A stretch of DNA of 47,218 nucleotides. Origin: an uncultured Candidatus Saccharibacteria bacterium. GTDB lineage: Bacteria; Patescibacteriota; Saccharimonadia; Saccharimonadales; Saccharimonadaceae. The stretch lies in the NCBI GenBank assembly GCA_937858705.1, contig CALLZM010000025.1:1-47218 (forward strand), in the 5' to 3' direction. Positions 5,519 to 33,109 of the stretch are shown in pieces. The translations under genes were made by a program, and so were the position numbers. The notes under the pieces are model-generated. The model saw only the letters and a program-made list of their open reading frames with translations, did no database searches and was not told the origin of the DNA. Numbering within the stretch: the stretch's first letter is position 1; every line of letters starts with the position of its first letter.

Positions 5519-6709
5519 ATGCCTGAAGTAAAACCAAGTGACATTCAAACATTTGCCAGTATCAAAGTTGTAGGTGTTGGTGGCGCTGGTGGTAGCGCAG
5601 TCAACCGCATGAAGGATGCAGGACTCACTGGTGTGCAATTCATTGCCATGAACACTGATGCTCAGGCACTGCACAATTCGAAAGCAGATATTAAGATTCA
5701 CCTCGGTCACAGCACTACCAATGGACTAGGCGCAGGTGCTGATCCTGGTGTGGGTGAAGAAGCGGCGAGAGAGTCTGTCAATGAAATTCGCGATGCCCTT
5801 GATGGCGCAGACATGGTATTTGTTACCATTGGTGCTGGCGGTGGTACTGGTTCTGGTGCAGGTCATGTTGTGGCAGAAGTCGCAAGAGATATGGGTATAT
5901 TGGTGGTTGGTGTGGCCACTCGACCGTTTAGCTTTGAGGGCGAAAAACGCCGTCAAAATGCCGAAACAGCTATTATGAATCTTGGTCGACAGGTAGATAC
6001 ACTTATTACTATTCCAAATGATCGACTATTGCAGACGATCGATCGCCGTACGCCACTGCTCGAGACATTCAAGATAGCCGATGATGTATTGCGACAAGGC
6101 GTGCAGGGTATCTCAGAGCTCATCACCGAGCATGGTCTCATCAATCTCGACTTTGCTGATGTCAAGGCCATTATGAGCAATGCTGGCTCGGCTCTTATGG
6201 GGATTGGTCGAGCAAGCGGTGAAAATCGAGCGGTTGAGGCAGCTCAACAAGCAATTGAATCGCCACTTATTGAAGTATCGATTGATGGTGCAAAGGGCGT
6301 ATTGTTCAATGTAACTGGTGGCTACGACATGTCGATGGCGGAGATTCAAGAAGCAGCAGAAGTTATCACGAGCGCAGTGTCGCCAGATGCCAATATTATT
6401 TTTGGTGCAACACTAAAACCAGAACTGGAGAATGACATCATCATCACTGTCATTGGCACTGGGTTTGATAGCGCTTTTTTCCAACAAGCTACACCAGAGC
6501 AGGTGACTGAATCGAGCAATATTAACGAAGACATGGAACGAGCGGTTGAAGAAATCGATAGCAGCACCGACTCTAGTACGGTTGATGCAGCAGCTAGCTT
6601 TGCCGAAGAGAGCGCCAAAGACATTTGGGGACAGCCCGAAGAGCAAGAAGAAGATGATACGCCGGCCTTTTTGAGGCGGCGTAAAAAGAAGCAATCAAAG
6701 GAGTCTTAA
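5519..6709 (+). CDS. ftsZ: Cell division protein FtsZ
   Basis: A 396-residue tubulin-like GTPase that forms the division ring. VGVGGAGGSAVNRM at about residues 18-31 and the tubulin signature GAGGGTGSGAG at about 104-114 are intact; NPDRLL-like IPNDRLL and the T7 loop NLDFADVKAIM (about 209-219) are present. After a 60-residue acidic linker the protein ends in a basic RRRKKKQSKES tail; a C-terminal DTPAFLRR segment is the likely FtsA-binding peptide. The start has a strong GGAGG site at 5511-5515. An extended -10 (TATACT, 5474-5479) lies in the ftsA-ftsZ gap. Confidence 0.97.
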   Translation: MPEVKPSDIQTFASIKVVGVGGAGGSAVNRMKDAGLTGVQFIAMNTDAQALHNSKADIKIHLGHSTTNGLGAGADPGVGEEAARESVNEIRDALDGADMVFVTIGAGGGTGSGAGHVVAEVARDMGILVVGVATRPFSFEGEKRRQNAETAIMNLGRQVDTLITIPNDRLLQTIDRRTPLLETFKIADDVLRQGVQGISELITEHGLINLDFADVKAIMSNAGSALMGIGRASGENRAVEAAQQAIESPLIEVSIDGAKGVLFNVTGGYDMSMAEIQEAAEVITSAVSPDANIIFGATLKPELENDIIITVIGTGFDSAFFQQATPEQVTESSNINEDMERAVEEIDSSTDSSTVDAAASFAEESAKDIWGQPEEQEEDDTPAFLRRRKKKQSKES

Positions 6710-7161
6710 TGAAAGTCGTAGCAATAGGCGATAGTCGTGTTTTAGAGTCACGAGAATCTGCTGACGGCATGTCTATCCGTCGTCGTCGAGAAACGGCCGA
6801 TGGCAAGCGGTTTACTACTTATGAACGCATAGAGCGGCGAAATATTGCTGTAGTAAAACGAGATAGTGCAAGGGAGTTATTCGACCGGAACAAATTGGCA
6901 AATTCGATTCATCGCTCAGTGGCTAAATTCTTCAAGTCTGATATGGAAGTTGACTCACTCATAAATGATATAGAAGATGCTATATACGAATTGGGCGAAA
7001 ATGAAATTCCATCTCGGCAGATTGGTGAAATTGTCCTTGATAAATTAGCCAAGTCAAATGATGTCGCGTATGTACGGTTCGCGAGTGTATTTTATGATTT
7101 TCGTACTCTCGATGATTTTGTGCAAATCCTTGATCGCAAACGACAGGAAAAGGCGGAGTAA
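6709..7161 (+). CDS. NrdR-like ATP-cone regulator lacking all zinc-ribbon cysteines
   Basis: A 150-residue protein with the layout of NrdR, the nucleotide-sensing repressor of ribonucleotide reductase genes. SRVLESRESADG, SIRRRRE and GKRFTTYERIE match the N-terminal NrdR domain, and about residues 45-135 (VVKRDSARELFDRNKLANSI through YVRFASVFYDFRTLDDF) match the ATP-cone. The four zinc-binding cysteines of NrdR are all gone: the positions read MKVVAIGD and RRETADGKRF, and the whole protein contains no cysteine. The ATG overlaps the ftsZ stop by one base, so the gene is translationally coupled to cell division. It may be a zinc-free NrdR or a repurposed nucleotide sensor. Confidence 0.85.
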   Translation: MKVVAIGDSRVLESRESADGMSIRRRRETADGKRFTTYERIERRNIAVVKRDSARELFDRNKLANSIHRSVAKFFKSDMEVDSLINDIEDAIYELGENEIPSRQIGEIVLDKLAKSNDVAYVRFASVFYDFRTLDDFVQILDRKRQEKAE

Positions 7162-7164
7162 GAT

Positions 7165-7422
7165 ATGCGCGTCGTGATTGTCTACAAAGATGCGAGCGAT
7201 CATGCCAGGGAAGTCATCGACTATTTGCGCGACTTTTCTCGCCAAACAGGGCACGACCTCGAAACAGTCGATCCGGATACTGCCGATGGTTCGCAGTTTT
7301 GTCGAGTGTATGATATTGTCGAATACCCAACGGTTATTGCCCTAGGCGACGATGGACAAATGCAAAATGTGTGGCGTGGCCGACCACTACCAACCATAAG
7401 CGAGGTGAGCTTCTATGTTTAA
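7165..7422 (+). CDS. Small thioredoxin-fold-like protein without CxxC
   Basis: An 85-residue protein starting MRVVIVYKDASDHAR and holding YDIVEYPTVIALGDDGQ at about residues 50-66, which looks like the cis-proline half of a thioredoxin/glutaredoxin fold. There is one cysteine (about residue 48) and no CxxC active site. The end overlaps the start of the VKOR-like gene by 8 bases, so it may be a partner or structural remnant of a disulfide system. The start ATG is 3 bases after the NrdR-like stop. Confidence 0.55.
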   Translation: MRVVIVYKDASDHAREVIDYLRDFSRQTGHDLETVDPDTADGSQFCRVYDIVEYPTVIALGDDGQMQNVWRGRPLPTISEVSFYV

Positions 7423-8047
7423 GAAGATAAAAGAGTATTTCACGCACGAAGAAAAGAAGATTCGCGACAATCGTTGGATATTTGCGAGTATGCTTGTGGG
7501 GGCGATTCTCAGCCTCATCGCATCGTTTGTGCTGAGCATGGAAGCGGTGCAGCTGGCGGCCGACCCAGATGCGGTACTGAACTGCTCTATTAATGTCCTC
7601 ATCAACTGTGCAACGGTCGCACTTCATCCGTCGGCTAGCCTGTTCGGATTTCCAAATGCATTTTTGGGGTTGATGGCTGAGCCAGTCGTTATCACTGTGG
7701 CGATTGCCGGGCTTGCAGGGGTCAAATTTCCTCGGTTCTTCATGTTTGCGGCTCAGATAGGCTATACGCTTGGCTTCATCTTTGCCTACTGGCTACTCTA
7801 CACCAGTTATTTTGTCATCGGCGCGCTGTGTCCATGGTGTCTGCTAGTGACGCTGACAACGACGCTGGTGTGGTTTGCGATTACCCGCTACAATATTCGT
7901 GAAAACAATCTCTTTTTGCCGAAAAAGACACAAAAAGCGCTCGAGAAGTTCATTGCTAAAGATTATGACAAGCTGGTGATGGCAATTGTTATCACGGTCA
8001 TCGTCGCGGCACTCGTTCTTCGTTATGGCGACGGTTTGCTCTACTAA
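7415..8047 (+). CDS. Vitamin K epoxide reductase (VKOR) family membrane protein
   Basis: A 210-residue integral membrane protein with five likely membrane helices. The VKOR quinone-linked active site CPWC is at about residues 142-145, and an upstream pair of cysteines (LNCSINVLINC, about residues 55-65) fits the loop cysteines that pass electrons in VKOR. Bacterial VKOR homologues reoxidise the DsbA-type oxidant, replacing DsbB. The N-terminus starts with a charged cytoplasmic segment. It overlaps the thioredoxin-like gene, an arrangement suggesting a disulfide-forming pathway for exported proteins. Confidence 0.88.
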   Translation: MFKKIKEYFTHEEKKIRDNRWIFASMLVGAILSLIASFVLSMEAVQLAADPDAVLNCSINVLINCATVALHPSASLFGFPNAFLGLMAEPVVITVAIAGLAGVKFPRFFMFAAQIGYTLGFIFAYWLLYTSYFVIGALCPWCLLVTLTTTLVWFAITRYNIRENNLFLPKKTQKALEKFIAKDYDKLVMAIVITVIVAALVLRYGDGLLY

Positions 8048-8190: not shown

Positions 8191-8994
8191 ATGAGCGTCA
8201 TCCGAACAACAAAATTAACCAAAACCTTTCAATCGGTGCGGGCAATTTCGGATGTTGATATCGATATTACGCCGGGAGCAATTACTGGTTTCTTGGGGCC
8301 CAACGGTGCGGGTAAGAGCACAACGATGAACATCCTCATGGGGTTCATCGCAGCGAGTTCGGGCGAAGCGTGGTTGTTTGATGAGAAGGTTTCGGTGGGC
8401 AATGCCGCGGCGCGGCGAGATGTCGGGTTTTTGTCGAACAGTACGGCGCTCGATAAATCACTCACGGCAGCACAAGAAATCGAATATTTTGGGCACTTGG
8501 CGGGTGGCTATGACAAAAAGTATGTTGCTGAGCTGACGAAGCGACTGGGGCTCGACGCGACACAAAAGATTGGCAAGCTCAGCACGGGAAATTACCAGAA
8601 AGTTGGCCTAGTGATTGCGCTGATGCATAAGCCAAAGCTGTTGGTGCTCGACGAGCCGACCAATGGGCTTGACCCGCTGGTGCAGGCCGAGTTTAACAAA
8701 ATTATCCTTGACCTCAAGGAGTCTGGTTCGACGATTTTTATCTCGTCGCATATTTTGAGCGAGGTGCAAGAGCTCTGTGATGAGTTCATCTTTATCAAGC
8801 GCGGCAAGATTGTGGCGCAGCTGACGAAGCGTGAGCTGCTGGCTCGTTCGCACGACAATTTAACAGTGCGGCCAAGTGCGAAGCAACGAGAAAAATTGCT
8901 CGCGTTTCTCAAGCAGCAGGGTATTGTCTACAAAATCGACCAAGTGGATTTGGAGGCGGAATTCATGAAATACTACGAGGACGACCATGCTTAA
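8191..8994 (+). CDS. ABC transporter ATP-binding protein
   Basis: A 267-residue ABC ATPase: Walker A GPNGAGKST near residue 38, signature LSTGNYQKVGL, Walker B LLVLDEPTNGLDP and the switch His in FISSHILSE. This is the form seen in ABC-2 exporters of antibiotics, lipids or polymers. A longer frame starts at 8161, but the -10 box (TGT-TATGAT, 8179-8184) lies inside it, so ATG 8191 is chosen and the mRNA is probably leaderless. The end overlaps the permease gene by 8 bases. Confidence 0.9.
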   Translation: MSVIRTTKLTKTFQSVRAISDVDIDITPGAITGFLGPNGAGKSTTMNILMGFIAASSGEAWLFDEKVSVGNAAARRDVGFLSNSTALDKSLTAAQEIEYFGHLAGGYDKKYVAELTKRLGLDATQKIGKLSTGNYQKVGLVIALMHKPKLLVLDEPTNGLDPLVQAEFNKIILDLKESGSTIFISSHILSEVQELCDEFIFIKRGKIVAQLTKRELLARSHDNLTVRPSAKQREKLLAFLKQQGIVYKIDQVDLEAEFMKYYEDDHA

Positions 8995-9778
8995 GACGAT
9001 TCTTACGAAGATGTTGTTCGAAAAACGCTGGACACTTGCGTTATGGTTTGTGGCGTCAACAGCGACAATCGTGGGTATCTCGATGATATTTCCGCCAATT
9101 CGCGACACCATGGGCCAGATGCTTGGTTCGGTGCCAGAAAGTATGAAAAATTGGTTTGGCTCGGCTGAAACTTGGCAGACATTTGCTGGGTTTGCCGGAC
9201 AAGAAATCTATACGCAGATGTCCATGCTTATCGTGGTGATGGCGATTGTGTTTGGCGCGGCATTTGCGGCTGGCGATGAGCACGACGGTACGCTACTGAT
9301 GGTGCTAGCGCGGCCGGTGCGGCGGAGTAGTTTGTTTGTGCAAAAGTATGCGGCGCTGTTTGTCATGGTGACGGTTGTGGCGTCGACTTATTTCTTTGGT
9401 GCGGTACTCGGCGGGTGGATACTGAGCGAGCCGGTACCGTACGCGGTATCTTTGCAGGCGAGTGTCATGGTGTGGTTGCTCGGACTAAGTCTCGCGACAG
9501 TCACCTATGCCATTGGTGCGGCGACTGGTCGAAAAGGACTTGCTGGGTTGGTGGTCGGATTTTATGCATTTGTGGCGTATTTCATCGCCTCGCTGTCAAC
9601 GGCAACGGATATTGTCGATAAGCTAAGCTATGGTTCGTTGTTTCGATATGTTGCTGCACCAGAGGTGATTGCGGGCGGGCTGAACGTCGGGCATGTTGCA
9701 GTATTTGTTGTAGTGATTATCGTCTCGCTCGTCGTGGCGCTGCCGATATTTGCACGGCGAGATTTGAAAACGCGCTAA
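8987..9778 (+). CDS. ABC-2 type permease
   Basis: A 263-residue membrane protein with about six hydrophobic segments: near residues 15-33, 78-98, 116-140, 155-170, 178-200 and 238-258. The cytoplasmic stretch with GDEHDGTLLMVLARPVRRS is the ABC-2 permease coupling region. The gene overlaps the ATPase by 8 bases, so the two form one exporter (two permeases and two ATPases per complex is usual). The substrate cannot be told from the sequence. Confidence 0.85.
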   Translation: MLKTILTKMLFEKRWTLALWFVASTATIVGISMIFPPIRDTMGQMLGSVPESMKNWFGSAETWQTFAGFAGQEIYTQMSMLIVVMAIVFGAAFAAGDEHDGTLLMVLARPVRRSSLFVQKYAALFVMVTVVASTYFFGAVLGGWILSEPVPYAVSLQASVMVWLLGLSLATVTYAIGAATGRKGLAGLVVGFYAFVAYFIASLSTATDIVDKLSYGSLFRYVAAPEVIAGGLNVGHVAVFVVVIIVSLVVALPIFARRDLKTR

Positions 9779-10854: not shown

Positions 10855-10883
10855 TTGACTTATAGGGAACCAAGGTGTATTAT
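10855..10883 (+). promoter_or_regulatory. Promoter of the first DUF4143-type ATPase
   Basis: TTGACT 10855-10860, 17-base spacer, TATTAT 10878-10883. The spacer holds AGGGAACC, a further copy of the GGGAA half-site of the adjoining palindrome. ATG 10890 begins 6 bases after the -10 box. Confidence 0.75.
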
Positions 10884-10889
10884 GTAGCT

Positions 10890-12029
10890 ATGCAGAATTA
10901 CCAACGAATCATCGAACCAGAGATAAAAAAGCGATTGTTTGAGACGGGTAAGGTGATAGTACTATATGGACCTCGGCAAGTAGGTAAAACAACACTAGCT
11001 AAAAAGATTTTGTGCGACTATGGGTCTGAGGCGGGATATTTTGACTGCGACATCTTGACCGTGCGTGAAGCATTGATGAGTAGTAACCCGGAGACGATGC
11101 ACGATGTTTTTGCCGGACATAAAGTGATAGTATTTGATGAAGCGCAAAAAATAGAGAATATCGGCGTTGCGCTAAAACTCCTCATCGATACCTACCCAGA
11201 TATGGCTATCATTGCCACTGGTAGCTCATCATTTGACCTCGCCAATCGTGTTGCTGAGCCGCTAACTGGCCGGCACTACGAGTTTTTCTTGTCTCAGATA
11301 GCGAGCGAAGAGATGCTGAAAAGTAACACAAAACTTGAGGTGCTTAACGATTTGCCAACTCGTCTCATATACGGCAATTATCCAGAAGTTATCAACGCAA
11401 AGAACAATAGCGAGGCTCGTGAAAAATTGGAACTGCTGGCGACAAGCTATCTCTACAAAGATGTCTTGCAGTTCAACACTATTCGCAACTCGGAGGTACT
11501 GATGAATATCTTGAAGGCATTGGCGCATCAGGTCGGTAGCGAGGTGTCGTACAACGAAATCGCCAATCTCGTCAGTATTGACCGCAAGACCGTTATGTCA
11601 TATATGTCGCTCTTGGAGCAGGCGTTTATCATATTCCGGCTGCTTCCATTGACTGCTAACAAGCGCAACGAGATTAAAAAGCTTCGCAAGGTGTACTTTT
11701 ATGACAACGGTATCGTGAGCGCACTAACACGCAATTTTAGTAGCGTGGAGTCTGGTCGCGATATGGGCGGTCTATGGGAAAATTATATGATGTCCGAGCG
11801 GCTAAAGTATCAGAGAAATCATCTATTGCGGTATGGAAATTATTATTGGCGGCGTAATCGTGGGGGTGAGGTAGACTACATAGAAGAGTATGATGGAGAG
11901 CTGTATCCATATGAGTTCAAATTCAAAAAAGGTAGTGCCAGCTCCGCGACTGCCGACTTCTACCGCTCATATAAAGCACCTAGGATTGAGGTCATACATA
12001 AGGAAAACTTTTTGAAGTTCGTCTTGTAG
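10890..12029 (+). CDS. AAA ATPase of the DUF4143 type
   Basis: A 379-residue ATPase. Walker A GPRQVGKTT lies near residue 27, Walker B KVIVFDEAQK near 82, and sensor-like AIIATGSSSFDL near 109. After a winged-helix-like middle part (EIANLVSIDRKTVMSYMSLLEQAFII) the C-terminal DUF4143-type domain has a PD-(D/E)XK-like core: GGEVDYIEEYDGELYPYEFKFKK, with D, E and K in nuclease-like order. GTG 10875 is rejected because it lies before the -10 box. Proteins of this type are common in bacteria and archaea, but their task is poorly known. It stands directly upstream of the DGR target gene. Confidence 0.85.
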   Translation: MQNYQRIIEPEIKKRLFETGKVIVLYGPRQVGKTTLAKKILCDYGSEAGYFDCDILTVREALMSSNPETMHDVFAGHKVIVFDEAQKIENIGVALKLLIDTYPDMAIIATGSSSFDLANRVAEPLTGRHYEFFLSQIASEEMLKSNTKLEVLNDLPTRLIYGNYPEVINAKNNSEAREKLELLATSYLYKDVLQFNTIRNSEVLMNILKALAHQVGSEVSYNEIANLVSIDRKTVMSYMSLLEQAFIIFRLLPLTANKRNEIKKLRKVYFYDNGIVSALTRNFSSVESGRDMGGLWENYMMSERLKYQRNHLLRYGNYYWRRNRGGEVDYIEEYDGELYPYEFKFKKGSASSATADFYRSYKAPRIEVIHKENFLKFVL

Positions 12030-12092
12030 CACAGCCGAACACACTTGTGCTACAATGTAATCAAGCAATACATCGGTATAATGGAGGGCAAG

Positions 12093-12923
12093 GTGAAGGG
12101 GATATTTCAAACAATAACAGAGGTAGTTAAGTCGCCAACGGTACTAACGCTGCTCGTCGGTGCGCTCATCGGTGGCGCGGTGGTTGGTGGTAGTATGATG
12201 GTCAGCGCCGAGAGTTTTCCGGGCGGCACGGATAACGGTAAAACTTCGCGGATAAAGCAGCTCACCGACGACCTTGCGGCGCTCAACTACGGTAGCCCAA
12301 GCAACACGCCCGACTGGGGTGCCAACTGGAACCGCATTGCTACTAGCGCTAAGTGGACACCAAACGGCGACACTACGCCAGCCGATGTCATGGTGGGCAA
12401 AACCTTCTATGGCAACAACCGCACCCAGCAAACCGGCACCAAGCCAGTGACGGGTATCTGTCCGACGCAAGCGTGGCATGACAGTGCCGCCGGTGCTAAC
12501 AAGCCCGACAGTTGCGTTTTTGACTGGGTGACGCCCACGCCTACGCTGCCGGGTGACGACAAAAAAGACCCGAACACTGGCTTGGTCTGGAGCAAATGTC
12601 TCCTCGGCACGGGCGGCGCAGTTGATTTCGCACCGTCGACTGCGTGTACGACATACTCCTGGGATAACACCCATGCTAACAACAGCGGCAAAACGGCTAT
12701 AGAGCTCTGCTCCGACAGAGGCAACGGCTGGCGCTTGCCCACCCAAAAAGAGCTCATGCAGGCCTATGTCGATGGCTCCAACTACAACTTAGTGACGCCT
12801 GCTGCCAGCCACTGGTCAGCGACCGAGCATTCTGCGGCGGTTGCTTGGTACACCAACTTGTCCTATGGCTACACTAACAACAACTCGAAGGCCAATGCGT
12901 ACCAGGTGCGGTGCCTCCGGTAA
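12093..12923 (+). CDS. DGR target: membrane-anchored variable protein with C-type-lectin-like DUF1566 domain
   Basis: A 276-residue exported protein. An N-terminal membrane anchor (about residues 14-36, rich in G, A, V and L) is followed by an outward region. The segment ADVMVGKTFYGNNRTQQTGT is of a kind seen in phage tail and surface proteins. The C-terminal DUF1566/C-type-lectin-like domain has GLVWSKC, CSDRGNGWRLPTQKEL and the closing YQVRCLR. The last 125 bases are the variable repeat, so the ligand face is what changes. GTG 12093 is chosen for its GGAGG site at 12083-12087; ATG 12081 is an alternative. Possible promoters are TGC-TACAAT (12051-12056) and TATAAT (12077-12082). The likely role is adhesion or recognition at the surface. 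Confidence 0.88.
   Translation: MKGIFQTITEVVKSPTVLTLLVGALIGGAVVGGSMMVSAESFPGGTDNGKTSRIKQLTDDLAALNYGSPSNTPDWGANWNRIATSAKWTPNGDTTPADVMVGKTFYGNNRTQQTGTKPVTGICPTQAWHDSAAGANKPDSCVFDWVTPTPTLPGDDKKDPNTGLVWSKCLLGTGGAVDFAPSTACTTYSWDNTHANNSGKTAIELCSDRGNGWRLPTQKELMQAYVDGSNYNLVTPAASHWSATEHSAAVAWYTNLSYGYTNNNSKANAYQVRCLR
12799..12923 (+). repeat. DGR variable repeat (VR)
   Basis: 125 bases that match 14828-14952 (offset 2029) except at seven positions: 12808, 12837, 12840 (A in the template to G), 12841, 12849, 12864 and 12870 (A in the template to T). All seven are A in the template. The last 53 bases are identical. Encoded changes are N to S, T to A, N to V, and N to Y three times. Confidence 0.97.
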
Positions 12924-12951
12924 TCTTTTCTTGGTGATTGTGTGATTTCGG

Positions 12952-12970
12952 CCCGCCCTCTCGGGGCGGG
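12952..12970 (+). other. GC-rich hairpin downstream of the VR
   Basis: Perfect 7-bp stem CCCGCCC (12952-12958) / GGGCGGG (12964-12970) with a 5-base loop, 28 bases after the VR end. No T run follows, so it is a poor terminator. Hairpins just downstream of the VR help target recognition in the well-studied phage DGR, so this may be the homing hairpin. Confidence 0.6.
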
Positions 12971-13009
12971 GCGAGTACGGGTCACTTCCAGAACTTAACG
13001 CAAACATAT

Positions 13010-13035
13010 AGTTTTGGAAATATACTTCCAAAACT
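13010..13035. promoter_or_regulatory. Palindromic operator before the second ATPase promoter
   Basis: AGTTTTGGAA (13010-13019), loop ATATAC, TTCCAAAACT (13026-13035), ending 2 bases before the -35 box. A near copy of one half-site (TTCCAGAACT, 12986-12995) lies 40 bases upstream. It resembles the palindrome at 10826-10853 in core (TTTGGRAA/TTCCAAA-like) and in placement. Confidence 0.7.
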
Positions 13036-13037
13036 TA

Positions 13038-13066
13038 TTGACATGATGTCGTAGAGGGACTATACT
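13038..13066 (+). promoter_or_regulatory. Promoter of the ATPase-avd-TR-RT unit
   Basis: TTGACA 13038-13043, 17-base spacer, TATACT 13061-13066. ATG 13074 begins 7 bases later, so the first message is probably leaderless. No other full promoter was seen before the reverse transcriptase. Confidence 0.75.
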
Positions 13067-13073
13067 ATAACGC

Positions 13074-14264
13074 ATGATAAATCGTACACTATATCTAAAT
13101 AAACTGCGCATGTACAAGGATAAACATCTTATAAAGGTCGTGTCTGGCATTCGTCGCGCTGGCAAATCGACTCTTTTGCAGATATTTAAGGGGGAGATAA
13201 TAGGTGCTGGGGTAGACGAGCGGCAAACGATTTCTCTCAACTTTGAGGACTTAGCATACCGGGACATATTGACGGCTGAGGCAGCCTATGACTACATACA
13301 GAGCCGGTTACTCTCGGACAGGATGAATTATATTTTTCTCGACGAAGTGCAAAATGTTGCTGAGTTTGAGAGGATGGTAGATAGTCTGTTCATAAAGGAA
13401 AATGTCGACCTGTATATCACTGGCTCCAATGCATATTTTTTGTCATCTGACCTTGCGACTGTTCTGACTGGCCGCTACATACAGATACACATGTTCCCAC
13501 TCTCGTTTGCAGAGTATGTCTCAGAGTTTGATGATACGACCAACCTAGCACAATTATATGCAAGCTATATCAACTATGGTTCGTTTCCGCAGGCACTGGA
13601 GCTATTTCTCGATAGTCCAGAGGCGGTGAAGCCATATATTCAGAGTATATACGATACTGTATTGTTCAAAGACATTGTGGCGAGGAAGTCTATCAGGCAA
13701 GAGGGTACTCTGCAGGATATTGCAAAGTTTGTATTTGACAACATCGGTAACCCTACCAATCCTCACAGAATAGCTACCTCGCTGACCGCTGCTGGTCGTA
13801 AAGTGAGCAATCATACAGTAGAGGACTACATGACAGCACTGACGGATAGCTTTGTCTTGTATCGTGCAGACCGCTACGATGTTAAGGGGAAGCATATTTT
13901 GCAAACACAGCAGAAATACTATTGCGTTGACTTGGCGTTTCGACAGTTGCTTTCCAAAACTCTACCGACAGACTACGGGCGTATGCTCGAGAATGTTGTA
14001 TTTTTGGAGTTACTGCGGCGCTATGACAAAGTGATGGTCGGTAAGTTTGGCGTGAAAGAGATTGATTTTGTGGCTGTGCTTGATGATGAGGTGCACTACT
14101 ATCAGATAGCCCTTTCGGTGCGCGAAGATGCTACTAGAGAGCGTGAGCTGGCGGCTTTTCCTCAAGACCATCATGCGAAGTTTTTGCTCACGCTTGACCC
14201 AGAAGAAGGAAATATACACGGTATCAAACAGCTGAACGCTTTGAATTGGCTGGTGAAGCAATAG
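13074..14264 (+). CDS. Second AAA ATPase of the DUF4143 type, inside the DGR
   Basis: A 396-residue ATPase. Walker A SGIRRAGKST is at about residues 24-33, Walker B MNYIFLDEVQN at about 82-92, then YITGSNAYFLSS. The C-terminal part holds the DUF4143 nuclease-like fold (VKEIDFVAVLDDEVHYYQIALS) with Q in place of the catalytic Lys, so cleavage is doubtful. It differs strongly from the ATPase at 10890, so the two are not recent duplicates. It lies between the DGR target and avd, with avd starting 4 bases after its stop, so all DGR machinery genes may be driven by its operator-controlled promoter. Confidence 0.85.
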   Translation: MINRTLYLNKLRMYKDKHLIKVVSGIRRAGKSTLLQIFKGEIIGAGVDERQTISLNFEDLAYRDILTAEAAYDYIQSRLLSDRMNYIFLDEVQNVAEFERMVDSLFIKENVDLYITGSNAYFLSSDLATVLTGRYIQIHMFPLSFAEYVSEFDDTTNLAQLYASYINYGSFPQALELFLDSPEAVKPYIQSIYDTVLFKDIVARKSIRQEGTLQDIAKFVFDNIGNPTNPHRIATSLTAAGRKVSNHTVEDYMTALTDSFVLYRADRYDVKGKHILQTQQKYYCVDLAFRQLLSKTLPTDYGRMLENVVFLELLRRYDKVMVGKFGVKEIDFVAVLDDEVHYYQIALSVREDATRERELAAFPQDHHAKFLLTLDPEEGNIHGIKQLNALNWLVKQ

Positions 14265-14268
14265 GCCT

Positions 14269-14640
14269 ATGGCTCGCTACGAACACCTACCTGTCTACAA
14301 GGCGGCATACGACTTGAACTTGTATTTTTTCAAGTTGTCGCACAGTTTTCCGAAAGATTTTAAATATGGGCTAGGGCAAGAGGTGAGGGCGCTACTGACG
14401 GAACTGCTCGACCTCATCATCATCGCCAATAACAGCCAGGATAAACGGTCGGCGCTGCAAAAAGCTACCTTGACTATCGAACGAGTGAAGTTCAAAGCGC
14501 GGTTGCTGCACGACCTGAAAGTCATAAAAACCACTAGCTCAAAACACTTTTTTGTGCAACTAGTGGAGATATCGCAGCAACTGAAGAAGTGGTATGATTA
14601 CTGTGGGGGCCTGAGTGGCTCTCAGGAAAAGAAAGGGTAG
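14269..14640 (+). CDS. avd: Avd, DGR accessory variability determinant
   Basis: A 123-residue helical protein with the features of Avd: PVYKAAYDLNLYFFKLSHSF at the N-terminus, FKYGLGQEVR at about residues 29-38, ANNSQDKRSAL near 54 and a closing amphipathic helix with QLKKWYDYCGG. Avd forms a pentameric four-helix barrel that binds the RT and the template RNA and is needed for mutagenic cDNA synthesis. It starts 4 bases after the ATPase stop and is followed by the structured leader and TR, the standard avd-TR-RT order. Confidence 0.9.
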   Translation: MARYEHLPVYKAAYDLNLYFFKLSHSFPKDFKYGLGQEVRALLTELLDLIIIANNSQDKRSALQKATLTIERVKFKARLLHDLKVIKTTSSKHFFVQLVEISQQLKKWYDYCGGLSGSQEKKG

Positions 14641-14827
14641 TACAGAGCTGAGCGCAGTCTCGCTATGAGTGCGAGTTGGGCTCGGGACTATTTCCCCATT
14701 ACGGTCACCACTCCAGACTGCGGTCTGGGATAAGAGACAGAGTGCTGCTACGCAGCGTGTTTGCGATGTGGTATTTCACTTGAGGCTAAGTTGGTGACAT
14801 TTGCGCTCGGGTTCTCGTTGCCTTTCT
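14641..14827 (+). ncRNA. Structured non-coding stretch between avd and the TR
   Basis: No plausible gene. Three perfect small hairpins lie in a row: CTCGC/GCGAG (14659-14663 with 14671-14675), CCAGAC/GTCTGG (14713-14718 with 14723-14728, TGCG loop) and GCTGC/GCAGC (14744-14748 with 14752-14756). In DGRs the RNA flanking the template binds Avd and RT, so this is the likely 5' part of the template RNA. A 63-codon frame (14761-14952) runs through it but has no ribosome site and covers the TR. Confidence 0.55.
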
Positions 14828-14952
14828 CTGCTGCCAACCACTGGTCAGCGACCGAGCATTCTGCGACGAATGCTTGGAACACCAACTTGTCCAATGGCAA
14901 CACTAACAACAACTCGAAGGCCAATGCGTACCAGGTGCGGTGCCTCCGGTAA
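14828..14952 (+). repeat. DGR template repeat (TR)
   Basis: 125 bases donating sequence to the VR at 12799-12923. Read in the target frame it is rich in AAC and AAT codons (ANHWSATEHSATNAWNTN and NGNTNNNSKAN), the usual design for A-directed mutagenesis. It ends at the same TAA as the VR, and similarity stops right after it. The RT gene starts 28 bases downstream. Confidence 0.97.
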
Positions 14953-14980: not shown

Positions 14981-16021
14981 ATGAACACTTATTTCACTTA
15001 CGAAAACCTACTCAAGGCCTATCATACATGCAGAAAGAACAAGACTACTAGTCAAGAATGCATGGAGTTTACCTGCAATCTTGAGGAAAATCTATTGGCA
15101 CTGGAGCAAGAGTTACAAACAAGGAGCTATCGACCGGGTCGGGCAGTGGCGTTTGTGGTGACCAAGCCGAAACTGCGCGAAGTGTTTGCGGCACGGTTTC
15201 GCGACAGAGTGGTGCATCATCTGCTGTACAATTATCTCGCGCCGATATATGAACCGAGGTTCATCTACGACTCGTGGGCATGTCGAGTAGGCAAAGGTAC
15301 GCATGGGGCGATGCAGCGGTTGCAGGACTTTGCGTGGCAGGCGAGTGAAGGCGGACGAAATCGCGAGTGTTACTATTTGCAGATGGATATCAAAAGTTTT
15401 TTTACTTCAATCGACAAGCAATGTTTGTATGATATATTTGCCAGAAACATCAAACGCGAAGAGATATTGTGGCTGACAAGAGTGATTATTTTTCATGACC
15501 CAGCGCGCGATATACCACCACAGCTGAATAGTCCGCCAAAACTGTTTCGGCAACTGCCGAGAGATAAGTCGTTGTTTACGGTTGAGAAAGGCCGTGGTCT
15601 GCCCATTGGCAATCTGACTTCGCAGTTTTTCGCTAATGTTTATTTGAATGAGCTGGACTGTTTTGTGAAACATGTATTGAAAGCGAAGAGGTATGTACGG
15701 TATGTTGACGACTGGGTGATTGTTGCTGGGAGTATGGCTGAGCTGAGGGCGTACGAGAGGGAGATTACTGCATTTACAGAGTCAGCACTGGAGTTGACGA
15801 TTCAGGCAAAAAAGACGGTGGTTGGGCGAGTGAGCGATGGTATTGACTTTGTGGGGTATATCGTGCGGCCACACTATGTGTTGGTGCGGCGCAGAGTGGT
15901 GTGGCAGTACCGGCGAGCACTCGAGCATGCGTTTGATGAACGGGCTCGAAAAAAGGTCGTGACAGCGTACAAAGGGCATATGCTGAAGGCGAATAGTTAC
16001 GCGCTCTGCGGTGTTTCATGA
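14981..16021 (+). CDS. DGR-type reverse transcriptase
   Basis: A 346-residue RT copying the template RNA with errors at A. RT motifs in order: YYLQMDIKSFFTSID (first catalytic Asp D136), the DGR-type GLPIGNLTSQ at 206-215 in place of the group II intron sequence, catalytic YVDD at 241-244, LTIQAKKTV and GIDFVGYIV. There is no maturase or endonuclease domain, which separates it from group II intron proteins, and the length is normal for the family. The catalytic residues are intact, so it should be active. The start ATG lacks a clear ribosome site; translation may be coupled or use a downstream start. It ends with TGA at 16019-16021. Confidence 0.95.
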   Translation: MNTYFTYENLLKAYHTCRKNKTTSQECMEFTCNLEENLLALEQELQTRSYRPGRAVAFVVTKPKLREVFAARFRDRVVHHLLYNYLAPIYEPRFIYDSWACRVGKGTHGAMQRLQDFAWQASEGGRNRECYYLQMDIKSFFTSIDKQCLYDIFARNIKREEILWLTRVIIFHDPARDIPPQLNSPPKLFRQLPRDKSLFTVEKGRGLPIGNLTSQFFANVYLNELDCFVKHVLKAKRYVRYVDDWVIVAGSMAELRAYEREITAFTESALELTIQAKKTVVGRVSDGIDFVGYIVRPHYVLVRRRVVWQYRRALEHAFDERARKKVVTAYKGHMLKANSYALCGVS

Positions 16022-16090
16022 AAAAAGCCGAGAGTGTAGGCGGTGAATGGCGCTTATGATATACTGTTTGGTAAGGGGTATGCATCGCAC

Positions 16091-19000
16091 ATGAAGATAC
16101 GCGCTAATACGCTAAAATTACCTGTAGCATTGAGTAGGTTTGCTTTGTCAAAAAAGCAGGTATTTGTTAGTGGTGGCGTGCTGATGGGTGTGGTGGTCGG
16201 TGGTTTGTTGTACAATTCACTGCAAGTTGAGGCGACCAGTACGGTGCCAGTGACTGGCTATGCAACAGTGCTGTCGACTGGTGAGCGGTTGGAGTTTGAC
16301 GCGTCTCATGGAGCTACGGTGACGATAGATAACTACACACGCCAGATGGATGGATATGCGTGGAGCGAAGATATTGGCTGGGTCGGTTTCGGCGAAACTG
16401 ACAACCCGAGCGGCTCTGTCACGGCTGCACCCGACGGTAGTTTGGGCGCTGGTGCACAGGCACTCAACCTCGGGCAGATAGATTTTGGCGGGAGTGGTTC
16501 TACGGCAAGCGTGTCAAGCGACTCATTTCACGGCTATGCATGGAGCGAGGACTTAGGGTGGATTGATTTTAGCGAGGTCAAAGCAATTGGCTACGACCCC
16601 GACCTCACGGCACCGACCAATGCTAGTGCTATCGCCCTGAAAAAATCGAGCAGCGGGGCGAGTGTAGCGGAGGGTGATTGGACGAACACGAACGGGTATT
16701 TTTCATGGCAGGCGGGCGAGGACAACACAAATGGTTCAGGTGTGCTGGGATATTGCTTGTATGTCGGACCCGACCAGTCGGGCGACCCAAGAACAACTAA
16801 GGGCTTGCTTGGTACTTCGCCAGTCGATATCGGCGGAGCCTGCCAATATGCGGTGTCGGGTGAGCATGTCGATTTGACCATCGGTGGTGCGCTAGCGACA
16901 GCGATGACTACTTCCGACGACCCGTATTATCTCAATATCCGAGCGATTGACCACTCGAAAAATGTGTATGACGGCGCGCTCGAAAGCTTCAGTTTCCGCT
17001 ATGACGATACGCCACCAACCAACCCGAGCTTCATCAACGCACCGTCGCAATTTTTGGCCAGCAAAACCGTGACCATGCTGTGGCCAGCGACAGGGAGCGA
17101 TGCTGCTCAAGACGGCAACTCTGGCGTGAAAGGTTTGCAGTACAAGATAAGTAACGGCCCGTGGTATGGTGCTGGTCATAGTGGCACACAAGATATCACC
17201 GACTTACTGGACAACAATGGCACCTACACTACGGTTGACCCGTATGACTTTGACCAGCTACAAGAAGGTAACAATATCATCAGCTTCCGAACTTATGACG
17301 AAGCAGGCAATATTTCGAACGACATCATCACAACGGTTATCAAAATCAACACCGACGCACCGTCCTCGCCGCAAAATCTCAGCGCTACGCCGTCGAGTTC
17401 AACGCAAAACAACTTTGCCTTTAGTTGGCAAGTCCCCGCCGTCTACAAAGGCACGGCTAGCTCGCTGGTATACTGCTATACGGTCAATGTTGTACCAACT
17501 GCCAGCAATTGTACTTTTACGGCACCAGGTGTGACCAGTCTTGCGGCTGGAGCATTTGCAACGCAGCCGGGCGAAAACACTTTGTATGTTGTGGCGCGCG
17601 ACGAGGCAGGGAACATCAACTATGAGGTGGCCACGAGCGTGAAGTTTACCGCCAACACTGCCGCCCCGGGTATGCCGCTCAACCTCGATATCGCAGATAT
17701 TAGCGTCAAAGCAAGTGCTAGTTGGAAGCTGGCGCTATCGTGGGATGTTCCAGCAAGTGTTGGTTCGGGCGTAGCAAAATACAAGATACTTCGTTCGCTT
17801 GACGGCGTGGCATTTAGTGAAGTTGCCTCGACGAGTGGTACGAGTTATGTCGATGGTGAACTGAGCCAGCAGGAGTATTTTTACAGGGTGCAGGCGTGTG
17901 ATAGTGCGAATAACTGTGGTGTTCAAAGTGGCGCAGTAAGTAAAGTGCCAACTGGACGCTTTACTACACCGGCAAGCTTGGTGGCTAGTCCATCGGTGAC
18001 GGTTAAAACGCGCTCAGCGACCATCGTTTGGACGACCGACAGAGATAGCGATAGCCGCATTCAATTTGGCACGACAAGCGGTCAGTATTTTGCTGCTGAA
18101 GCTGCTCAGTCAGCTCAGGTCAAGAATCATAGCATCGAGCTCAATAACCTCCAGCCAGACACGGTGTACTACTACAAAGCGCGCTGGACAGACGGCGACG
18201 GCAATACTGGTAGCACCAGCGAGATGATGTTCAAAACCTTGCCAGCGCCGTCGGTCAAAAATGTCTCAGTCGGACGAGTCAATTTATCGTCGGCAACTGT
18301 TAGTCTCACTTCAAAGCAGGCAGCCAAAGTGAAGATTTACTATGGTTTGAGTGAAGGATTTGGTGGTGTAGAACAGATAAACACTTCAACGGCAGAGTCG
18401 AGCTACATGGTAGAACTTACTGGTTTGAGTGACGGCTCAACCTACTACTACAAAGTAAACACAGTCGATGCGGAAGGGTACGAGTACGATAGCGGGCGGA
18501 TTGATACTTTTACAACACCAGCCAGACCGCGTATCAGCAATGTTCAGTTCCAGCCAGTTGACGGAAAACCAACGAGCACCCAGAAAATTACTTGGCAGAC
18601 CAATGTGCCGGCAACCTCACTGTTAAACTACCGCACCAATGGCCAGCCGATGAGAGAAATGAGCGACTCAAAAATGACCACCGAACATAGCATGACAGTC
18701 GAGGGGCTATACGATGATAGTGTGTACACGGTTGTCGTGCAGTCGCGTGATGGTTTTGGTAATGTCGCAGTATCAGACGAGCACAATTTCAAGACCGCAC
18801 TCGACACGCGGCCACCAGAGATTTCAAAACTACGAGTTGAAGTAAGTATTCGCGGTGTTGGCAATGAAGCTCGCGGGCAGATGATTGTCTCGTGGACGAC
18901 CGACGAGCCATCGACTAGTCAAGTATCGTATAGCAAGGGAACTTCTGGTAGTCACTATGCTTCCAGTACGGCAGAAGACAATGCTTTGACAACCGAGCAC

Positions 19001-19174
19001 ACCGTTGTCATATCCGACCTCGACACTTCGCAGGCCTACCGACTCAAAGCGGTATCTCGCGACAAAGCTCGAAACACTGGTGAGAGCGGCGACCGCAGTG
19101 CGATAATCGGACAGCCGAGCGACAGTGTCATCGACATAATACTAGGAACTCTGGAAAAAATATTTGGTTTATGA
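16091..19174 (+). CDS. Large surface protein with fibronectin type III repeats
   Basis: A 1027-residue exported protein. It has a signal anchor at about residues 25-45 (FVSGGVLMGVVVGGLLYNSL), then two copies of a GYAWSEDIGWVGF/GYAWSEDLGWIDF motif, then several Ig/fibronectin-III-like domains: YKILRSLDGVAFSEVAS is a classic Fn3 strand pair, followed by at least three domains with TVYYYKARW- or STYYYKVNT-type strands. The tail DIILGTLEKIFGL is a short amphipathic helix. The frame opens at 16043, but the extended -10 TGA-TATACT (16060-16065) lies inside that part, so ATG 16091 is chosen. It overlaps the ABC transporter gene by 4 bases. It probably acts as an adhesin or stalk. Confidence 0.82.
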   Translation: MKIRANTLKLPVALSRFALSKKQVFVSGGVLMGVVVGGLLYNSLQVEATSTVPVTGYATVLSTGERLEFDASHGATVTIDNYTRQMDGYAWSEDIGWVGFGETDNPSGSVTAAPDGSLGAGAQALNLGQIDFGGSGSTASVSSDSFHGYAWSEDLGWIDFSEVKAIGYDPDLTAPTNASAIALKKSSSGASVAEGDWTNTNGYFSWQAGEDNTNGSGVLGYCLYVGPDQSGDPRTTKGLLGTSPVDIGGACQYAVSGEHVDLTIGGALATAMTTSDDPYYLNIRAIDHSKNVYDGALESFSFRYDDTPPTNPSFINAPSQFLASKTVTMLWPATGSDAAQDGNSGVKGLQYKISNGPWYGAGHSGTQDITDLLDNNGTYTTVDPYDFDQLQEGNNIISFRTYDEAGNISNDIITTVIKINTDAPSSPQNLSATPSSSTQNNFAFSWQVPAVYKGTASSLVYCYTVNVVPTASNCTFTAPGVTSLAAGAFATQPGENTLYVVARDEAGNINYEVATSVKFTANTAAPGMPLNLDIADISVKASASWKLALSWDVPASVGSGVAKYKILRSLDGVAFSEVASTSGTSYVDGELSQQEYFYRVQACDSANNCGVQSGAVSKVPTGRFTTPASLVASPSVTVKTRSATIVWTTDRDSDSRIQFGTTSGQYFAAEAAQSAQVKNHSIELNNLQPDTVYYYKARWTDGDGNTGSTSEMMFKTLPAPSVKNVSVGRVNLSSATVSLTSKQAAKVKIYYGLSEGFGGVEQINTSTAESSYMVELTGLSDGSTYYYKVNTVDAEGYEYDSGRIDTFTTPARPRISNVQFQPVDGKPTSTQKITWQTNVPATSLLNYRTNGQPMREMSDSKMTTEHSMTVEGLYDDSVYTVVVQSRDGFGNVAVSDEHNFKTALDTRPPEISKLRVEVSIRGVGNEARGQMIVSWTTDEPSTSQVSYSKGTSGSHYASSTAEDNALTTEHTVVISDLDTSQAYRLKAVSRDKARNTGESGDRSAIIGQPSDSVIDIILGTLEKIFGL

Positions 19175-21718: not shown

Positions 21719-21749
21719 TTTACTCAGGGGGGGGGGTCTATGCTACAAT
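21719..21749 (+). promoter_or_regulatory. Promoter with a G10 tract in its spacer (likely phase-variable)
   Basis: Extended -10 TGC-TACAAT (21744-21749) with -35-like TTTACT at 21719-21724. The 19-base spacer holds ten G at 21727-21736. Loss of two G would give the 17-base spacing used by the other promoters here. A second -10-like TATAAT (21801-21806) without a clear -35 lies nearer the gene. Confidence 0.65.
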
Positions 21750-21837: not shown

Positions 21838-23256
21838 ATGCAATCCCAAACCCTCACCCAAACCATCACCCTCCTTGTGGGTGACACCACCGCAGGTGGG
21901 GGCACCCTTGCCTCCACTGGCATCAGCTCCACTGTCTTCATCGCCATAGCTTTTACGCTCATCCTCTCTGCCATTCTCCTCTATCGCTTTGCCACTCGTC
22001 GTGGCATTCTTCGTTCTATCTCTTCCTTTCGCAACCTTGGTATCTTCGCTTTTCTCGCTCTTGGTATCATCAGCCTTGCTCTAAACCTCTCCACTGTCTC
22101 TGCCGCTCCAACACTCATTCTTGCCGCTAACCAATCCAACCTCGAAATAACCATCCCCAAAAACGGCGGCACAGCAACCACTACCACCACCATGACCACC
22201 TCCACCGCCAACGCCACTGGCTATACACTCACTGCTAGCCTTGAAGCCGAAGAGCCAGGCATAGGTATTGCGCTCAAGGGCGGTGATGTTACGACAAATA
22301 CAGCATTGGCGGCAGGAGAAACACCACTCACTTTGAAGAGTACGAACACCGCAAATACTGGTGACGCTACTGACACCACTGCAGTCGAACTGTCGTTCAC
22401 CATCGACAGCACTGTCACCGAAGGCACCAAAGAGCTCAAGCTCACCTACAAAGCCACCGACAATGAATCAGCAGGCCCAGTTACTCCGCCAACCCCAACC
22501 ACCATGCAGTCCCTCACCCAAGACTACTGCACCAACCACATGACCATCTACAACGGCACGAATGAAGACGCCATCCTCACCCTCCAAGACAACCGCGGCG
22601 CCACTCCAGCAGACTACCGAACCTACCAAGTGGCTAAGCTAGCAGACAACAAGTGTTGGATGCTGGATAACCTCAAGCTTGGCTCGACTACAGGCACCAC
22701 CACGCTCACCTCGGCAGACAGCAACGTAGCAAGTAACTTCACACTGCCACAAGTAGGCGGCAACAACACACTCGACTACGACAATCCTCGAGCCTACGGT
22801 CCTGTCCCTGGCGACACGGGCAATGGTGCGACGAACTATGGCTACTTGTACAACTGGTCAGCGGCCACGGCAGGAGAAACACAAGCCTCAATAACTTCAG
22901 GCAACGCAGCGCACAGCATTTGTGCAAGAGGTTGGCGACTGCCAACCGGAGGAACAGGTGGCGACTTTGCCCAACTCGACCAAGCATTCGGTGGCTCGGG
23001 TACCGGCTCGTGGAGCGGTGAAGCAAACATCGCCCAGTGGCAACATAACGGCCTATTTAAAGGGGTCTTCGCCGGCAGCTGGTGGGAGGGCTTCCTCGAC
23101 CAGGGTGACTGGGGCTACTTGTGGCCCAGTTCGGCCGCCGTCCTGGGCTGGTCGGGCGGCGCATTCAACGCGAACTTCAATGCTGGCGGCGTCGACCCGG
23201 GCAATAGCGGCGGCCTCCGCGGCAGCGGGTTTGGGGTTCGCTGTCTCTTAAATTAG
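21838..23256 (+). CDS. Second variable-type surface protein (Fib_succ_major/C-type-lectin-like)
   Basis: A 472-residue exported protein. It has two membrane segments (about residues 29-48 and 66-86), a Thr-rich beta domain (about 90-215), a PTPPTPTT linker, then a C-terminal domain with YQVAKLADNKCWMLDNLKLG, CARGWRLPTGG and the closing GFGVRCLLN, as in Fibrobacter-type major paralogous domains and DGR targets. The motif LASTG (24-28) before the first hydrophobic segment and RR after it mimics a sortase signal, though at the wrong end. The ribosome site AAAAGGAG (21817-21824) is 13 bases from the ATG. The gene is C-rich at its 5' end and very G/C-rich at its 3' end, unlike its neighbours. It is probably a surface ligand-binding protein. 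Confidence 0.8.
   Translation: MQSQTLTQTITLLVGDTTAGGGTLASTGISSTVFIAIAFTLILSAILLYRFATRRGILRSISSFRNLGIFAFLALGIISLALNLSTVSAAPTLILAANQSNLEITIPKNGGTATTTTTMTTSTANATGYTLTASLEAEEPGIGIALKGGDVTTNTALAAGETPLTLKSTNTANTGDATDTTAVELSFTIDSTVTEGTKELKLTYKATDNESAGPVTPPTPTTMQSLTQDYCTNHMTIYNGTNEDAILTLQDNRGATPADYRTYQVAKLADNKCWMLDNLKLGSTTGTTTLTSADSNVASNFTLPQVGGNNTLDYDNPRAYGPVPGDTGNGATNYGYLYNWSAATAGETQASITSGNAAHSICARGWRLPTGGTGGDFAQLDQAFGGSGTGSWSGEANIAQWQHNGLFKGVFAGSWWEGFLDQGDWGYLWPSSAAVLGWSGGAFNANFNAGGVDPGNSGGLRGSGFGVRCLLN
23065..23253 (+). other. Candidate second DGR variable region (template not in window)
   Basis: Of the 54 codons from residue 410 to 463, 40 end in C or T, many of them GGC, GAC, GCC, GTC, TTC or AAC. 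That is expected when AAC/AAT codons are mutated at their A bases. It sits at the end of a lectin-like domain just before the GVRCL motif, the usual VR position. It does not match the local TR, so a distant template would be needed. Confidence 0.5.
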
Positions 23257-32494: not shown

Positions 32495-33109
32495 ATGAAG
32501 AATTTTGAATCGAACCGCACAGGAACAAGAGAACATATTAAAAAAGGAGTATTAGCGCTAGGGGGGGGGGCAGCGTTACTCACGCTGAATGCATGTGCTG
32601 AAGAATCGGTACCTACGAGCAATCACTATGGCGTAGAAGCTTTATGCCTCCAAGACGGTGCTATTGCTCGTGATGCTCCAAAAAAGGGTGACGATGATGC
32701 TATATTCTTTCCTGGATCTGGCAAGCAAGCTGCAGAGCTCGATCTGAATAATAAGAGGGGAGATCACGGAGATGATGCCTGGGAATATGTTTGTTATAAG
32801 CCAGAAGCAGGTATTGTCCAATCTGCTGATGGCTCTGGTGTGGACCCGAAGTATACGGATTGGCACAACGGTGCTTACGATCTAGTAGACGGCTCTCGCA
32901 TTCTTCAGGCTATTGAGGAAGGGAAGCTTTTAGACGGATATGGAAATCCAGCTACTCAGTTGGCGATTGAGTCTACTAAAAAGTTTGCTAAAAAAATTGC
33001 TGGAAAGGACGCCTGGGTTAATTGGCAACGAACATGGACGGTAAATGAAGAACCTCATGATCTAGGGGGCAAACCCTTTGGTGATACTTTTCCTCTTGAG
33101 GAACGATAA
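32495..33109 (+). CDS. Predicted phase-variable lipoprotein
   Basis: A 204-residue protein with a lipoprotein signal: KK at residues 16-17, a hydrophobic stretch to about 30 and lipobox LNAC with Cys34. The mature part is acidic and soluble, with no known domain (CYKPEAGIVQ, YDLVDGSRILQ, VNWQRTWTVNEE). A run of ten G at 32561-32570 encodes three Gly inside the signal. Loss of one G reaches TGA after five further codons, and gain of one G ends at TGA soon after the lipobox position, so export and synthesis can switch off. At present the frame is open. The promoter is leaderless-like. Confidence 0.78.
   Translation: MKNFESNRTGTREHIKKGVLALGGGAALLTLNACAEESVPTSNHYGVEALCLQDGAIARDAPKKGDDDAIFFPGSGKQAAELDLNNKRGDHGDDAWEYVCYKPEAGIVQSADGSGVDPKYTDWHNGAYDLVDGSRILQAIEEGKLLDGYGNPATQLAIESTKKFAKKIAGKDAWVNWQRTWTVNEEPHDLGGKPFGDTFPLEER
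32561..32570 (+). repeat. G10 homopolymer in the lipoprotein signal sequence
   Basis: Ten G, codons 23-25 plus the first base of codon 26. It is a contingency-locus-like tract. Confidence 0.9.

Follow-up and report, generated by a model that had tools for sequence, protein, structure and literature searches.

Architecture of the locus

The window, i.e. the whole 47,218-nt stretch of contig CALLZM010000025.1 from an uncultured Candidatus Saccharibacteria bacterium that was analysed here, harbors a diversity-generating retroelement (DGR). Its target gene (Lcl_C) ends in the variable repeat (VR) and is followed by a GC hairpin, an AAA_14/DUF4143 ATPase gene, the accessory variability determinant gene (avd), the template repeat (TR), the reverse transcriptase (RT) gene and the gene of a large fn3 surface protein. 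The individual features are as follows:

12093-12923, forward strand: DGR target gene, with an N-terminal hydrophobic helix and a C-terminal Lcl_C domain (PF07603, E = 1.3e-13)
12799-12923, forward strand: VR, the last 125 nt of the target gene including its stop codon, 94% identical to the TR
12952-12970, forward strand: GC-rich hairpin CCCGCCC-TCTCG-GGGCGGG, 28 nt 3' of the VR
13010-13035, no strand: palindrome AGTTTTGGAA-ATATAC-TTCCAAAACT, preceding the ATPase gene, read from the sequence
13074-14264, forward strand: AAA_14/DUF4143 ATPase gene (Pfam), between target and avd
14269-14640, forward strand: avd, intact (PF22296, E = 3e-12; NF033474, E = 9e-16; phrog_3206)
14828-14952, forward strand: TR, between avd and the RT gene, 28 nt before the latter
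14981-16021, forward strand: DGR-type RT gene, intact (RVT_1; GNLTSQ and YVDD motifs; phrog_1423, E = 9e-105)
16043-19174, forward strand: gene of a large fn3-repeat surface protein (Pfam fn3), adjoining the RT gene

The motifs [I/L]GNxTSQ and YxDD, which mark DGR-type RTs, are both found in the window RT, whose best solved relative is 8ub7 (E = 2e-41). The Avd protein scored 58 bits against NF033474, under the model cut-off of 80 bits. The intactness of both genes agrees with the earlier note, which had described an intact DGR-type RT and Avd beside the repeats. In a survey of simple-sequence tracts, with thresholds set by the authors (G or C runs of ≥9, dinucleotide tracts of ≥16 nt, tetramers of ≥4 units and pentamers of ≥3), none was detected in the window RT, avd or first target. 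An Rfam search gave no match.

The nearest cassettes, G109 (L047) and L033-L035 together with L040 (Berkelbacteria and other Patescibacteria), have all kept target, avd, TR and RT. A neighbour with fn3 repeats follows the RT in L034 (7160-9235), L035 (7075-10659) and L047 (7433-9517), and the corresponding protein of the window may have a role in the display or anchoring of the diversified lectin. The slot between target and avd holds GIY-YIG and Bro-N genes in L033, a GIY-YIG gene in L040 (the GIY-YIG label being named from sequence in both) and nothing in L034, L035 and L047; the window ATPase gene occupies what is in relatives a variable cargo position, and probably lies outside the DGR mechanism. 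Another AAA_14/DUF4143 ATPase gene is located at 10875-12029, the two lying on either side of the target gene. The palindrome at 13010-13035 is a possible operator. The 80 nt downstream of the VR fold at -33.2 kcal/mol, and hairpins at a similar distance past the VR are present in L034 (GCCACC-GAA-GGTGGC) and L035 (CCGCC-GAA-GGCGG), with no clear counterpart in L033 and L040. The DGR of Bordetella phage BPP-1 has a target-recognition GC hairpin near the end of its VR, and by analogy the window hairpin is a candidate for the same function, or possibly a terminator. The BPP-1 system also provides the closest solved RTs by sequence (8ub7 and following) and shares the same parts list, whereas the window DGR is cellular, its target is not a tail fibre, and an ATPase gene lies within the cassette.

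The target gene likely starts at the GTG at about 12093, chosen by the spacing of an upstream GGAGG; the reading frame is open from a TTG at 12045, which was set aside in favour of this start. The N-terminal hydrophobic helix would serve as an anchor or as a signal peptide, and because a plausible signal-peptidase site (VSA/ES) comes after it, membrane anchoring is only possible. The lectin-like nature of the target, proposed in the earlier note, was borne out by the PF07603 match and by the modelled C-terminal domain, which adopts a C-type-lectin fold and matches the C-terminal domain of Legionella Lcl in Foldseek (8q4e, E = 1.8e-5). The mean pLDDT of the model is 54 overall, which is low, with blocks of the C-terminal domain mostly at 61-87. 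In this model the variable residues, approximately 239-260 as numbered from GTG 12093, are placed on and between strands of the lectin-fold domain, and they may form the ligand face of the protein.

The template and variable repeats

Re-alignment of the 125-nt TR and VR reproduced exactly what had been noted before: an ungapped alignment with seven mismatches, all at positions that are A in the TR (14837, 14866, 14869, 14870, 14878, 14893 and 14899), comprising three A>G and four A>T substitutions, and no mismatch at any other template base. The TR contains 34 adenines in 125 nt, and the hypergeometric probability that all seven mismatches fall on A is P = 6.7e-5. These mismatches affect six codons and are all non-synonymous (N>S, T>A, N>V with two hits, and N>Y three times). 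The homology between TR and VR has sharp boundaries at both ends, the 3' boundary being the shared stop codon. Related cassettes show this A-directed pattern as well, which sustains the reading of the repeats as a signature of A-specific mutagenic homing. Among 128 non-redundant RT loci, mostly from Patescibacteria, 108 possess a TR/VR pair in which template adenines account for at least 75% of the mismatches, and within these 108 pairs 1772 of 1839 mismatches are at TR adenines, a figure inflated by the 75% filter itself. That the two repeats are a recent gene-conversion duplicate, with an A bias due to chance, would fit the small number of mismatches; given the P value for the window alone, the same bias in the 108 related loci and the avd and DGR-type RT genes adjoining the repeats, the probability of this explanation is negligible.

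By its anatomy and its A-only mismatches the window locus is a complete canonical DGR, for which the retrohoming reaction is expected from its family. RT and Avd would copy the TR transcript, miscopying template adenines, and the resulting cDNA would replace the VR, so that exposed residues of the lectin-fold surface protein are rewritten and the TR stays fixed. It is an unremarkable DGR that appears to be constitutively ON: since its RT has no tract, it should be constitutive at the level of the reading frame and, having no sequence switch, would be ON whenever expressed. Only 7 of the 34 TR adenines differ in the VR, and most relatives carry 8-32 substitutions; the window DGR may therefore be little used. 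The same paucity would suit a fossil, i.e. an element formerly active and now silent, with its seven differences as a frozen record. This is improbable for a locus that has kept its RT, Avd, target and TR intact and has accumulated no non-A mismatch over 125 nt, and a functional, constitutive element is the preferred reading.

In the classification of Roux et al. 2021 (PMC8144416), the DGRs of Patescibacteria, or CPR, are DGR clade 2, and several DGRs occur per CPR genome (PMC10907252). The window DGR resembles them in its RT, its Avd, the A-directed TR/VR pair, the C-terminal C-type-lectin fold of its target and the presence of several DGRs in a small genome. Clade 2 targets are usually without a recognisable domain (Roux et al. 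2021, PMC8144416), whereas the window target matches a Pfam domain (Lcl_C) and carries a hydrophobic segment at its N-terminus. By itself, the window DGR would be a routine entry in a large catalogue.

Other DGRs of the genome and a second target

The 0.91-Mb genome encodes four DGR-type RTs, the other three being located on contigs C2, C6 and C27. The window TR and VR are the only two copies of this repeat in the genome, with no further VR, and the window RT is absent from the two other genomes of the genus. Mismatches in the own TR/VR pairs of the C2 and C6 DGRs are likewise A-directed (22 of 23 and 15 of 16, respectively). In the C6 DGR (L046, G000:C6), the RT frame (about 6471-7447) is broken at a G13 run (6913-6925), from which we infer that this DGR is switched off by a tract in its RT.

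Downstream in the window, two further features were recognised:

21727-21736, forward strand: G10 run between a putative -35 (TTTACT) and a putative -10 (TACAAT), upstream of the second target, read from the sequence
21838-23256, forward strand: second DGR-type target (Fib_succ_major-like), VR at about 23061-23250, paralogous to the target gene that adjoins the C27 DGR

The second target shares 80% DNA identity with C27:13038-13515. Its VR differs from the C27 VR at 18 of 37 positions that are adenines in the C27 TR and at 8 of 147 other positions (P = 3e-9), and because the two VRs differ mainly at C27-TR adenines, the gene at 21838-23256 either still is or once was a DGR target of the remote type, diversified from elsewhere in the genome. 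The present C27 TR was considered as its direct template and rejected: non-A differences from this TR number 31 of 147 in the C27 VR and 36 of 147 in the window VR. With so many in both, the C27 TR has probably decayed or is not the direct template. The C27 TR (about 8929-9112; L044, G000:C27) also has an in-frame TGA relative to its VR, and looks decayed; a G11 run (8697-8707) lies in the last codons of the C27 RT. The G10 run at 21727-21736, one of about 19 runs of G10 or more in the genome, may act as a promoter-spacer switch that varies expression of the second target. The first part of a lipoprotein-like gene (32495-33109) contains another G10 run (32561-32570).

Simple-sequence tracts in related cassettes

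In the RTs nearest that of the window, one site of the reading frame is occupied by a (GA)n tract of 21-37 nt, which is out of frame in L034 and L035. The RT clade of the window comprises eight RTs (SH-aLRT 98), five with a tract and three without (window, G109 and G548). In a phylum-wide sample of one genome per species, retrieved with the RT of L033, itself tract-bearing, a tract is present in 54 of 93 DGR cores outside the window's family and in one of 34 within it, the single case being the C6 DGR of the window genome. Among 80 viral DGRs, a set found with an RT alignment and including near copies, one has a tract; a search of viral contigs with the window RT alone gave no match. The repeated units are (GA)n, poly-G, GT, CT, and 4- and 5-mers, located in the RT at about residue 130, 155 or 180-200, rarely at the RT start, or, in loci with divergent avd and RT genes, a few codons past the start of avd; one tract is found within avd itself. 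The poly-G of the avd/RT junction was considered as part of the TR and ruled out, the TR being located elsewhere.

Tract density is 0.42 per kb in DGR cores versus 0.016 per kb in their flanks. Across 50 whole genomes, 16 of 21 (GA)8+ tracts are at DGR RT or Avd genes: 13 at known RTs and three at further DGR RTs found from their surroundings; two more are directly upstream of DGR targets. About 21 of approximately 87 G9+ runs in the same genomes are at DGR RT or Avd genes, as assigned by coordinates and by eye. The share of RT genes in the sequence is estimated at 0.2-0.25%. In the 128-locus set, 11 of 30 tract-bearing RTs are frame-split, compared with none of 98 tract-free RTs (P = 2e-8), and in all 11 the break is at the tract. 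Metagenome assemblies can miscount tract length, and the frame call for an individual MAG locus with a long tract is uncertain. The 20 RT-core tracts are divided into 11 out of frame and nine in frame, and for 11 of 35 avd-start tracts a start codon in frame lies close by (by the authors' own reading), the proportion that random phase predicts.

Ten of the loci with a split RT still possess A-directed TR/VR pairs, which argues that these RTs were functional until recently. The A-purity of their pairs is slightly reduced (139 of 153 mismatches versus 1633 of 1686 elsewhere), which fits spells of inactivity. The units differ at the same Avd site among related RTs, being C9 and GA in L124 and L148, CT and C9 in L100 and L169, and C9, C10 and a tetramer in L126, L130 and L134, and on the RT tree the tract classes must have changed 26 times or more; it is thus the repetitiveness, and not the sequence, that is kept.

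Tract enrichment, together with RTs split at tracts, predicts phase-variable hypermutation. The window would be read, with a probability of roughly 85%, as a complete DGR without a switch, most of whose relatives outside its family have a tract in the RT or avd frame; in these, slipped-strand changes of tract length would switch mutagenesis between active and silent states, randomly and heritably. The switch part of this reading comes from the relatives and the C6 DGR, since the window RT and avd are without a tract. It is also quite probable, from these sequence patterns, that the DGR core genes (RT and avd) of Patescibacteria are contingency loci that arose repeatedly, the window DGR being tract-free and locked on and the C6 DGR switched off. 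An unlikely alternative is that the window holds an ordinary DGR and that the tracts of its relatives have no regulatory meaning, being assembly errors or neutral low-complexity inserts at sites that tolerate them. The tracts do lie in variable RT stretches or at gene starts, repeats can be miscounted in MAG assemblies, and we infer switching from tract and frame. However, few such tracts occur in viral DGRs or in the rest of these genomes, errors may alter the length of a tract and cannot create one, and unrelated units recur at the same site, with RT and avd both affected, so that tract-switched mutagenesis is the favoured explanation.

Simple-sequence phase variation is well described for the contingency loci of Neisseria, Haemophilus and Campylobacter (PMC5084427, PMC2651432, PMC6321876). 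Like these loci, the relatives' DGRs have tracts of homopolymers or short units within coding sequence or promoter spacers, with the frame on or off in about random phase; unlike them, their predicted switched product is a targeted mutator and not a surface structure, and the reversibility of the switching is conjectural. Amino-acid turnover was reported to be slower and more episodic in cellular DGRs, in a study that did not settle whether a stricter control of RT activity is the cause (Roux et al. 2021, PMC8144416). A slippage switch in RT or avd would be a concrete and readable means to restrain a permanently carried mutator and, if the reading is true, tract length in reads shows which cells can mutate. 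Pipelines requiring an RT of 250-550 aa, the length required by Roux et al. 2021 (PMC8144416), may miss switched-off DGRs. Mention of RT or avd tracts, which most of the relatives have, was not found in the account of clade 2 (PMC8144416, PMC10907252). What appears new here is the slippery repeat in the relatives' DGR machinery, with no earlier description found among open-licence papers; these yielded co-mentions only for phase-variable DGRs, and papers pairing CPR with phase variation had subjects other than DGRs.

The few (GA)n tracts away from DGR RT and Avd genes, such as L035 4089-4112 and L040 3025-3054, mostly precede DGR targets or fall at the beginning of large proteins that probably belong to the cell surface. 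The L256 tract at 2453 is 99 nt before the gene of an fn3-type protein, and the L254 tract at 2545 is at the start of an 829-aa ORF. Finally, G467 has several DGRs (L109, L110 and L111), with GT tracts of 25, 18 and 21 nt, respectively, at their avd starts.
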